Assembly: GCF_025118155.1 (NCBI RefSeq) | Contig: NW_026251392.1 | Span: 558,001-622,000, forward strand | Length of the DNA: 64,000 nucleotides | Reading direction: 5' to 3' | From: Cokeromyces recurvatus | Lineage: Eukaryota; Mucoromycota; Mucoromycetes; Mucorales; Mucoraceae | Shown: positions 10,222-37,410 of the stretch, piece by piece | Numbering within the stretch: the stretch's first letter is position 1 | Layout: every line of letters starts with the position of its first letter | Notes under the pieces: generated by a model | Seen by the model: only the letters and a program-made list of their open reading frames with translations | Told to the model about the DNA's origin: nothing | The model's database searches: none | Position numbers and translations under genes: made by a program

Positions 10222-10403
10222 CCGTAGTAAACACGGCTTCCATTTTAGGGATTTAGATTTTTTCAGGTAAGCATCTGAAAAGCACTGTTTTTTCGTCCAA
10301 AAATGATTTCTTTTTTGTCTAAAAATTAATTTTAATTCATCCAAAAAAAAGTCTAACATCGTCTGAATTTGAAGTGTGAATACTGCAGACTTCAGCACTT
10401 GAA
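10222..10403 (+). mobile_element. Orphan right end of a Fanzor-type element
   Basis: Aligns with the 3' non-coding end of the element at 35281-37288. It has CCGT..ACGG (10222-10236), then TTCC...GGGA, then TTCAGGTAA. It also has a run of CGTCCAAA / GTCTAAA / CATCCAAA motifs, then CTAACATCGTCT(G/A)AATTT(G/A)AAGTGT. No protein-coding part precedes it. A 5'-truncated LINE begins immediately afterwards. Confidence 0.6.
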
Positions 10404-34239: not shown

Positions 34240-34925
34240 ACATTGTTATACACGTTCCAAGAGGAGAAGGGCTTATCATGTAGAAAAACTTTAATTAAAA
34301 GCATCGAGACAGATTTCCCTTCAACAAAAAAAAAAAAAAAAAACCCCGTAGACATTGAAAAATGGAGCATTTATAGATTGTATATGCCCTCAAACATGTG
34401 TCCCCAAATCTTCAGGTTCTACAATGAAAGGTCTACAACCCCTTTCGTTTCAATGATTATCAAGGCAGACAAAGGTCGAATAAAGAGATGACCAACATTT
34501 TACTTAATGGAGGAAAAAAGTATAATGAAGCCAAAAGACTGAAAACAGGGAAGAATATAAAGAAAAGATAAGAGGGCAAAAAGAATCCACAGATTATATA
34601 CGACGATAAATGTAAGACTACACCAGGAAAGAAGCAGGCAGGATAAAAAAAAAGCCAAATTCAAGCCTTCTCTTTGTGTACCTCTCGTTGCGTTTGGTGA
34701 TAGGATGAAGAATCCGGATACGATTAGGATAAAAGGCCAGATGTCAGATGCCACAGCAATACTTGAGAGAGAAATCAAGCTTAAATCAAGAACTACATTT
34801 TGATAGATCTGCTGTCTTTCAGAGAAGAAACAATTTCGCTGGCAATAGTGGTTTAGATATCCACAGGTAATTTGTCTAAATTGTAATACATACTTGTCCA
34901 AAAAAAAAAACTAACAGTAATTCGT
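34240..34925 (+). pseudogene. Fanzor-type nuclease relic
   Basis: Broken plus-strand frames match, in order, the C-terminal half of the intact Fanzor next door. Here MTNILLNGGKKYNEAKR with a Lys-rich run corresponds to MVNMLLNGTKKYNKSLR there. VPLVAFGDRMKN...IKGQ corresponds to VPLVVFGAGMFG...YKGL. A CLNC-like pair follows. It then ends with CTTGTCCAAAAAAAAAACTAACA, the same right-end word seen in the other copies. Multiple stops make it inactive. Confidence 0.55.
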
Positions 34926-35058
34926 CTCTTGTTCTTTCTCAAGTTGAATCCTTATTCGTCTTGTAATCCGTCTCACTTTCAAGTTAAATGACTCTTCCTT
35001 ACCTTTAAACACAAAGTTCTTGAAACCAAATTCATTTTGTCTGAGATTTATAAAGTTA

Positions 35059-35105
35059 CCTATGAGCACATAATATCTTTGTTATATTGGATTACCCAGG
35101 TCAGT
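35059..35105 (+). repeat. Diverged copy of the outer inverted repeat
   Basis: TATGAGCACATAATAT...CCCAGGTCAG resembles, with about 65% identity by eye, the left outer repeat of the element at 53798 (TGAGCACATAACATT...CCCTGGTCAG). It lies 165 bp left of the intact Fanzor element. Confidence 0.4.
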
Positions 35106-35269
35106 TCAAATTACGTGAAAAAAAGTATTTAAAAACCCTTTTACGGGACACGAGGTAAAAAGGTAAAGGAAAGGAAGAAGAGAAGGTGAAAAAGAAAGGA
35201 GGAATATTGCTAACAAGTTTAAAGGGACAACCAGTTGAGTAATTTCTTGCCTGGATCAAGAAGTGGAGG

Positions 35270-35369
35270 AGACACTCTGCTTACACTTTTTGGACGAAAG
35301 GAAAAATAAAATCAGACGAAAAAAATATGAGTTCAGACACTTTGATGGTAAATGTTCAGACTTTTTCTT
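35270..35369 (+). repeat. Left inverted repeat of Fanzor element
   Basis: About 100 bp whose reverse complement matches 37125-37227 at roughly 85-90%. It includes GTCTGAACATTTACCATCAA, CGTCTGATTTTATTTTTCC and CGTCCAAAAAG. It also supplies the region just upstream of the Fanzor start codon. Confidence 0.85.
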
Positions 35370-35465
35370 CATCTGTAATCATCAAATCCCAAAAAGGAAA
35401 ACCCTGTTTTTTTTTTAAAAAAAAAAGTGAATCACAGACGTTGCAGAAGTATTGTGTCTAATTTA

Positions 35466-37086
35466 ATGAAGTGCGTCTTAACCTTACGTTCCTTTAATAA
35501 ATCGCAACTTAAAAACACAGAGGACTTCCTCGATCCCAGAAAGCCTCTGTATATCACATCCGCCCTTAGCAATTAGCAACATAAACTTGCCTTACGGATT
35601 CCCTTGGTAGATTTACTCCTTTATTGATACACTTGCTCTCTATCATTGAATCTGAACACGACAACCATTGTGAATACGATGTAAGAAGACTGTCTCTTCC
35701 GCGGCGATTTAGTCTGTTCCCAACACCTTCCTTACACTGGCGTTCTATAACTTTGTCAGTAAACGCATTATCTGCGTTTCTTCCTCGTGAAAAGTTGCCA
35801 AGAGGTTATAATGACCAACTTCGGCTCTTTTTTAAAATATTAAAGTTCCAGTCATTGAGAATTAAAACGTAAGTTTTAAAAAAAAGGGTGATATCATAAT
35901 AATTAAAGCAAACATACTTCCAGAATTGAAAGTATAATGTCAAATGGCAGAAATAGACAGTTGTTTGGAAACTTGATCAGATCAGACGGTTTCAGTATTG
36001 ATTTTTTGTTCTACAAAAGACGAAATGATCAAAATGATATGACTGTCAAGGTTAACCAAATACACCTCAAAGTCGATGACTTTAAGAGTCAAGAAGTAGA
36101 AGAGTCATCTCTTCCAATAGCAATTGACCCTGGAAGAAAAACCGTTTTTACTGCAGTTACCGATTTAGACCGCGATGTTCGACGATGCACAACCAAGAAA
36201 TACTATCATTTGACAGGCTCAACAAGATTCAGTTCTGAATTGACCAGACTAAAAAATGAGCGTGGCATTAACATCATAGAAAGCTCTATACCAACCAACA
36301 AGACTTCTGACTCAGAAAAGTACTTGCGGCATGCCACCTATATTTTTAATAATTTAGATACTCTGTTCGAGTTTTATAATGCTGCTACGGCGAAGAACCG
36401 TTTCTTCTTGTACCAAGGAAATCAAAGGGCGCCAGAGCTAATGGTAAACATGTTGCTAAACGGAACTAAAAAGTACAACAAAAGTTTAAGAAGCAAGGAG
36501 AAAAAGAAAGCAAAAAACAAAAGGAAGAAGAAGAAAAAAGGGGGTACCAAGAAGAAAAGAAAAGGAAAAGAAGTTATAAAGAAATGTATTCCAAGGTATT
36601 TGTAGTTAAAAAAAGAAAACCAGTAGATTAGTGTCATTATTATTTTTACTGAAAAGGTGCATGTATACAAATGTATCTGATAGAGAGACCAAATATAAAA
36701 ACTACAAATCAAAGGTACCCTTGGTCGTATTTGGGGCCGGAATGTTTGGCAAAGATTTGGTGCACTACAAGGGATTGAGAAGTGGAGTCACTGAACTCTT
36801 TTACAAGACTTTAAAGAGAAGAGAAAGTAATGGTGACTTGATAGTTGTTACCATCGATGAGTATCTTACCTCCCAAGTATGCTCTAAATGTATGACAAGA
36901 AGTTTGGATGTTTTTACTGGTGTTCGTGGCTGTGGTGTTCTTGTTTGCAAAACATGTCAAACACTGTGGCAGAGGGATATTAATGCATCTTTAAACATAA
37001 TGAAGATTGCACAGTCGATTTGGAGAGATGGAGGGCGCCCTCTTCTGTTTAAAAGAGGTCAAGTCTTACATAAATCGCCGTATTAA
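35466..37086 (+). CDS. Fanzor RNA-guided nuclease (eukaryotic TnpB homologue)
   Basis: Fanzors are eukaryotic TnpB relatives; characterised members are RNA-guided DNA nucleases. Exons 35466-35548, 35611-35868, 35924-36595 and 36657-37086 join without a stop to give 480 residues. The RuvC acidic residues are visible: Asp182 (AIDPGRKT), Glu406 (TIDEYLTS) and Asp445 (QRDINASLNI). The zinc ribbon has Cys 413, 416, 435 and 438 (CSKC, CKTC). Upstream, FSLFPTPSLHWR and RSDGFSIDFLFYKR are lineage-typical blocks. A Lys-rich segment (about 299-335) could be a nuclear localisation signal. Each intron is 55-62 nt and restores frame exactly. Start chosen as the first ATG after the left repeat that splices in frame. 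Activity is inferred, not shown. Confidence 0.82.
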
Positions 37087-37124
37087 ACACGGTTCTCCGA
37101 AAGGAGTTCAGATTATTACAGGTA
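37074..37124 (+). ncRNA. Candidate omega (guide) RNA scaffold core
   Basis: CCGT-ATTAAAC-ACGG (37078-37092) spans the Fanzor stop codon. It is followed directly by CTCC-GAAA-GGAG (37095-37106), a GNRA-capped hairpin, then TTCAG and CAGGTAA. The ACGGTTCTCC...GGAG unit recurs at 55310-55327 and, decayed, at 10233-10250, always between the coding end and the right terminus. In TnpB/Fanzor systems the guide scaffold is transcribed from this position. Exact ends are unknown. Confidence 0.5.
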
Positions 37125-37227
37125 AAGAAAAAGTCTGAACATTTACCATCAAAGTGTCTCAAACTCATTTTTTTTTTTCGTCTAATTTTATTTTTCCTTC
37201 CATCCAAAAAGGGTAAACAATGTGTCT
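37125..37227 (-). repeat. Right inverted repeat of Fanzor element
   Basis: Partner of 35270-35369. It carries iterated TTCGTC(C/T)AAA-like words that continue to about 37280. Confidence 0.85.
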
Positions 37228-37288
37228 GAAAATTAATTTGGATTCGTCCAGAAAAAAAAAACTAACATCGTCTAAATTTAAAGTGTAA

Positions 37289-37370
37289 GTGAAAACGTTA
37301 TTTTTTTTTGTGGGGTAATTAATTAACAACAAAATTTAATTTTTTTTTTGTAGCAACCTTTTCTTTCCTT

Positions 37371-37410
<40 letters not shown>

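Follow-up and report, generated by a model that had tools for sequence, protein, structure and literature searches.

Fanzors are RNA-guided proteins that cut DNA. Fanzor1 genes in Tc1/mariner elements and Fanzor1 families in Mucorales are already known from the excerpted text of Bao and Jurka 2013 (PMC3627910): such elements carry Fanzor1 alone or together with a transposase and have terminal inverted repeats (TIRs) and TA target sites, and Mucor, Rhizopus and Phycomyces were listed there as hosts. PpFz1, the Fanzor1 of Parasitella parasitica (PDB 9cf0/9cf1), has an FRI insertion and is active (PMC11423790, in excerpt). The omega RNA of SpuFz1 from Spizellomyces punctatus (PDB 8gkh/9cez) spans the right inverted repeat (IR), and the guide lies beyond that repeat; ghost loci of the same species have no working protein, yet keep the IRs and the omega RNA (excerpts of PMC10432273).

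We analysed a Fanzor1 homologue in a 64,000-nucleotide stretch of Cokeromyces recurvatus DNA (the window). A first-pass annotation had interpreted it as an intact Fanzor element, perhaps active. The homology stands and the RuvC half of the gene is open, but "intact" is refuted by sister copies, a lost stop codon and damaged ends: the gene is ordinary in identity, and describing it as intact was mistaken. Very probably, the window element is what remains of a Tc1/mariner-type transposon with a mucoralean Fanzor1 gene: degenerate, non-autonomous and not a working nuclease. It shares the Fanzor1 fold with SpuFz1, and would resemble the ghost loci in retaining IRs and a putative omega RNA but no working protein. 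In contrast to PpFz1, it is missing the N-terminal part. Like the published Tc1/mariner Fanzor1 elements, the Cokeromyces elements have TIRs and TA target sites. Their ends read TA-CAGT, while those mucoralean elements that are assigned a type in the excerpts of PMC3627910 are MuDR-like, with 9-bp target site duplications. A frame may be open and contain all of the catalytic residues and still deceive, as long as it has not been compared with sister copies that show what is lacking.

Fanzor1 identity and the four-exon gene model

Judged from its sequence, the window gene is a Fanzor1 homologue. A Pfam search places Cas12f1-like_TNB (PF07282) on the last exon (E 1.8e-10), with no relevant Pfam match on the other two frames when scanned apart; with PADLOC, too, the matches (Cas12u/Cas12f models, best E 5.8e-7) are confined to the last exon. 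A protein search with the 480-aa frame returned 50 proteins at E <= 0.001. The organisms named among these homologues are, we take it, all Mucorales, and five rows carry no organism. Fanzor-like matches at E <= 0.001 are very numerous across the genome: the central part has 145, the C-terminal part 159 and the N-terminal part 58, where several pieces may come from one copy. This makes the genome a rich resource for Fanzor1, and it also provides a candidate omega RNA.

Fanzors are recognised by a RuvC-I DPG motif and by a catalytic Glu located six residues before the first CxxC (Ealt; PMC10711439). Both are present in the window protein, as IDPGRK from 36123 onward and as E-YLTSQV-CSKC. The D-to-E spacing is 224, which exceeds the 120-160 of the search expression in the excerpts of PMC10711439 and falls within the 125-275 of Bao and Jurka (PMC3627910, in excerpt). 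The Fanzor signature of the latter source, [TS][TS]xx-C4 zinc finger-RD, is found as TSQV-CSKC..CKTC..RD. The protein is also related in sequence and fold to solved Fanzor1: a model of a 720-residue Mucor homologue (P0004) aligns over residues 96-715 with the SpuFz and PpFz structures. Just upstream of the element are a TIR-like right end (34869-34925) and, at 34443-34583, what is left of another Fanzor, with 49% identity across 47 residues and a single stop.

The annotated four-exon open frame of 480 residues was reproduced exactly, and is among those that stay open when 60 GT-AG combinations are tried. Its exon 1 (35466-35548, +) is followed by intron 1 (35549-35610, +; 62 nt), and the Fanzor coding remnant (35611-35868, +) begins only after this, near residue 317 of P0004, so that residues 96-316 of this homologue are absent. 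Introns 2 (35869-35923, +; 55 nt) and 3 (36596-36656, +; 61 nt) are plausible; the frames in two sister copies, L009 and L012, also break at intron 2. The coding part between them (35924-36595, +) includes the RuvC-I DPG (Asp codon 36126-36128) and a Lys-rich stretch, and the last (36657-37086, +) includes the RuvC-II Glu (36859-36861), the CxxC..CxxC ribbon (36880-36957) and the RuvC-III Asp (36976-36978). D182, E406, D445, the ribbon and the Lys-rich stretch are thus all present as annotated. The final 8 residues of the frame are read-through beyond a lost stop. The best of the 50 homologues covers 93% of the query, a coverage that fits the 28 exon-1 residues lacking a match.

Internal deletion, lost stop codon and damaged ends

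Near-identical copies, which the first-pass annotation had suggested counting, do exist, at 90-96% DNA identity. A DNA search of the C. recurvatus genome gave 61 matches, and apart from the window itself six extend over a large part of the gene (contigs C18, C27, C3, C16, C7 and C34). L009 (C18) and L012 (C16) hold approximately 2.5 kb of extra DNA between the bases matching window 35589 and 35595, and it is this that contradicts the description of the element as intact. The extra DNA contains N-terminal Fanzor exons, with frames such as GTSTNKKRK..CSRCKLSGHSSARSPEC, a sequence that forms the N-terminus in homologues; its opposite strand in L012 has an 82-aa transposase-like relic. Near L013, there is no N-terminal Fanzor match among the matches listed. 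In the window the corresponding position is occupied by AAACTTGCCTTACGG (35583-35597, +), the scar of the deletion with a short filler, within intron 1. The same scar with identical filler is found in L014 (C34), whose flanks differ. In L009 and L012, the DNA of exon 1 lies approximately 1.6 kb upstream of the first recognised Fanzor frame, and is probably not Fanzor coding. Because the sister copies hold approximately 2.5 kb at this point and the scar is common to L014, exon 1 is upstream DNA moved close by the deletion, and intron 1 bridges the scar.

Two other origins of the scar were considered. The high identity of the copies (90-96%) and the duplicate appearance of contigs C18 and C27 would suit an assembly artefact of collapsed repeats, but the same scar and filler recur at L014 with other flanks, making this explanation extremely unlikely. 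A retrocopy, in which the 2.5-kb gap is a spliced intron of an antisense RNA, was rejected, as there is no GT-AG at the antisense boundaries and a filler is present. C18 and C27 probably represent one region twice, as duplicates or alleles running in inverse order; their match positions sum to 399013.

The codon at 37060-37062 (+) is CAA in the window, as opposed to TAA in all five sister rows (L042, L043, L003, L044 and L045; four loci if C18 and C27, which carry L042 and L003, are one). The inverted repeats reported around the gene are confirmed at 35319-35409/37085-37175 (77%) and 35270-35325/37172-37227 (88%), and both element ends are altered. Only the inner part of the left TIR is present (35270-35383, +; pairing with 37111-37227 at 87%). 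Its outer 61 bp or so are missing, although relatives have complete ends, and it halts at 35270, where it abuts a LINE 3' tail. The right TIR (37111-37288, +) has an altered terminus, reading AAAGTGTAAGTGAAAACG and not ...AAAACTG-TA.

For the most probable history, that of a degenerate copy, the sequence shows a ~2.5-kb internal deletion that took out the Fanzor N-terminus along with upstream element DNA (which holds the transposase relic in full copies), leaving a scar that recurs at one other locus whose flanks are not the same. It also shows damage to the stop codon and to both ends; the RuvC and zinc-ribbon half stays open, and an omega-RNA-like scaffold follows the gene. The window copy lacks the REC and WED domains of a working Fanzor1 nuclease: because its protein starts near residue 317 of the 720-residue homologue, the predicted WED/REC part, for TAM reading and guide holding, is absent. 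We infer that a product lacking the first WED segment and the greater part of REC could not read a TAM or hold a guide, and would not be a working nuclease.

Some observations run against a defective element. No stop interrupts the C-terminal two thirds of the frame, where every catalytic residue is present, and splicing over the scar at canonical GT-AG sites yields one frame. Were exon 1 real, the 480-residue protein would be an intact and active compact nuclease, with GT-AG introns, D/E/D and a 'MKCVLTLRSFNKSQLKNTEDFLDPRKPL' that is similar in L009 and L012. We regard this as very improbable: none of the 50 homologues covers more than 93% of the query, exon 1 is distant from Fanzor in full copies, the WED/REC region is missing, and the stop and ends are damaged.

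Substitution patterns bear on whether the deleted form has been maintained. The dN/dS between the window and five copies without the scar is 0.28-0.53, which mostly reflects the period when the family was functional; all five carry gapped codons or extra stops, and no clean sister copy was found among those inspected. The contrast with L014, for which the ratio is 1.48, speaks for a degenerate copy. Few changes underlie this value (18.5 non-synonymous, 3.5 synonymous), a point that counts against the defective-element reading; small in number, they show no protein selection after the deletion. A shortened product kept for another role, such as binding omega RNA or TIR DNA in competition with full-length Fanzor, would be consistent with the open frame, with the occurrence of the deleted form at two loci and with retention of RuvC/TNB, on which the SL1 contacts of the published omega RNA are located (PMC11423790, in excerpt). 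However, the ratio of 1.48 between the two scar copies, the loss of the stop codon and the restriction of the L014 match to query 46-1250 make this unlikely.

Omega-RNA-like scaffold and origin of the guide

Fanzor genes that share 42-58% identity with the C-terminal part of the window protein are followed by a conserved block of approximately 49 nt. It consists of a ATCGCCGT...ACGG hairpin (SL1), a second hairpin (SL2) with arms that differ between families, and then GATNNTTACAG-GTA. In the window it occupies 37073-37121 (+), with SL1 at 37077-37093, SL2 at 37095-37106 and the tail GATTATTACAG at 37111-37121, where it overlaps the right TIR. This block resembles the published PpFz1 omega RNA, in which SL1 has 7 bp compared with 5 in the window (excerpts of PMC11423790). 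It probably encodes a guide-RNA scaffold, seemingly still intact, and is a candidate omega RNA beside the gene, although its position relative to the element end differs from that in characterised loci.

The scaffold-tail pattern has 41 exact matches in the genome, compared with 5 for a reversed-pattern control. Of these 41, at least 29 follow a listed Fanzor C-terminal match on its 3' side, no more than 400 nt away and on the same strand, where 0.04 would be expected. Evidence for the fold is mixed. RNAalifold on a MAFFT alignment in which SL2 is misaligned recovered SL1 only, with an unfavourable covariation term of 0.08, i.e. no support from covariation as aligned. This alignment comprised 16 of 23 rows, leaving out two near duplicates (L042 and L036) and five members of one family with a longer region (L040, L048, L049, L055 and L056). 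One SL1 pair is CG in eight of the 16 rows, UA in four and broken in four, and the outermost pair is broken in four; like the covariation term, SL1 broken at one pair or more in several rows speaks against the defective-element reading with its retained scaffold. Across 10 families, SL1 folds as expected in five, with one mismatch in two and otherwise in three. SL2 folds as a hairpin at the same place in all 10 chosen regions, with a mean energy of -3.5. Swapping the arms gives a mean of -1.9, and 6 of the 76 swapped combinations are as low as the mean of the native ones; the arms were cut by eye, so this test leans towards a hairpin. Folding z-scores of seven single motifs range between -2.73 and -0.25; two of the seven, L046 and L030, form no SL1, which likewise counts against the defective-element reading. 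The sole Rfam match in window 35000-37400 is SNORD31 (E 0.12), below the gathering score.

Compared with SpuFz1 and the ghost loci, where the guide lies beyond the right IR (PMC10432273, in excerpt), Cokeromyces scaffolds end 80-171 nt before the element end in nine measured cases. These are the window copy, at 167 nt from its altered end, a C9/C12 family, at 150 nt, and seven of the 41 tails, each having a patterned end no more than 400 nt away. This raises the question of where the guide comes from when long TIRs separate scaffold and flank. Because the scaffold ends inside the transposon, it is possible, if doubtful, that the natural guide in these mucoralean elements is not simply flanking DNA: it may be a fixed, element-encoded guide to the element's own or sibling TIR arrays, with defective copies such as this one as donors, or the TIR may be spliced out. 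A further candidate is a guide within a long RNA that takes in the TIR. The sequence features bearing on splicing are a GTA after the scaffold and a CTAAC...AAG near the end; as a 5' splice site, the GTA is nearly constant and a G at +5 occurs in less than half of the rows, by eye. Allowing up to three mismatches, a 24-nt pattern following the window scaffold occurs 11 times in the genome, compared with once in the control, and by their coordinates these matches fall in TIRs of this Fanzor-bearing element family. An internal guide with targets elsewhere was rejected: the matches sit in family TIRs, and in the copies inspected the preceding bases read CAG, unlike the published ATN TAM of PpFz1. 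A transcript of the scaffold, if one is made, could load a different Fanzor in trans, which has been proposed for the Spizellomyces punctatus ghost loci; by this analogy the window element is perhaps a source of guide RNA. Literature searches on Fanzor with Mucoromycota, and on Fanzor with splicing or omega RNA, in which subscription papers were mostly outside the scope, returned nothing that we recognised on these points.

Carrier transposon and associated LINE

The window copy, with its altered termini, does not have TIRs ending CAGT.. flanked by TA, and no DDE transposase was found in it. A relative at C9 (296165-299581) has such ends, TA-CAGTTTTT...AAAACTG-TA, and when up to three mismatches are allowed, the pattern of the outer TIR end matches the genome 80 times and the control not at all. 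The 82-aa relic in L012 has no Pfam match itself; it is 39% identical (E 1.7e-7) to a frame on C47 that matches DDE_3 (E 1.8e-24). An inner, nested Fanzor element ending in TTACAGG-TA, where conservation stops, is unsupported: family left ends read CA-CCTGTAAT, and the C9 left TIR is without the motif.

A LINE with the 3' end GTTTAATC(G/A)-TA sits sense-outward at TIR ends, and the terminal TA of Fanzor-bearing TIR elements seems to be its specific insertion site, always in this orientation. Where both junctions are in hand, duplications of 9-15 bp starting at the TA beside the TIR end accompany seven independent insertions (C18/C27, C16, C34:796k, C38, C9:271k, C34:714k and C9:294k; two duplications have one mismatch). 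An eighth insertion (C4) has a duplication too, at a TIR without its last bases; at C3 the LINE is joined inside the TIR with no such duplication. At C13, C19, C21, C30, C41 and C45 the 3' side only was tested, and the loci read were partly chosen for carrying a Fanzor or adjoining a TIR. Forty LINE tails, the scored part of 102 candidates, were compared with patterned TIR ends. Such an end lies no more than 4 kb away in sense-outward geometry in eight cases (seven if C18/C27 is one), where about 0.2 would be expected by hand arithmetic, and in another geometry in six. Searches on site-specific LINEs and on Fanzor with non-LTR elements, with subscription papers again mostly beyond their scope, yielded nothing recognised on a LINE/Fanzor association.

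The LINE 3' tail joined to the left TIR of the window element (35046-35269, -) is outside the Fanzor unit and is 92% identical to the LINE tail of L009. One exact fusion of LINE tail and inner left TIR is found at eight loci (window 35046-35290, L012 and L014-L019) with outer flanks that differ: a multiplied chimeric unit. By eye, the duplication at its two ends in L016 and L018 seems to consist of TA alone. The LINE 3' end reads GTTTAATCG-TA at L009, L010, L012 and L061-L071. At L030 (C13) and L074, the left-TIR flank and the flank of the right-hand LINE 3' end have AGTTGGCTAA in common when each is read outward, as inverted copies. Elsewhere in the window, a TIR end at 10361-10387 (region 10361-10400) is followed by LINE-like sequence.
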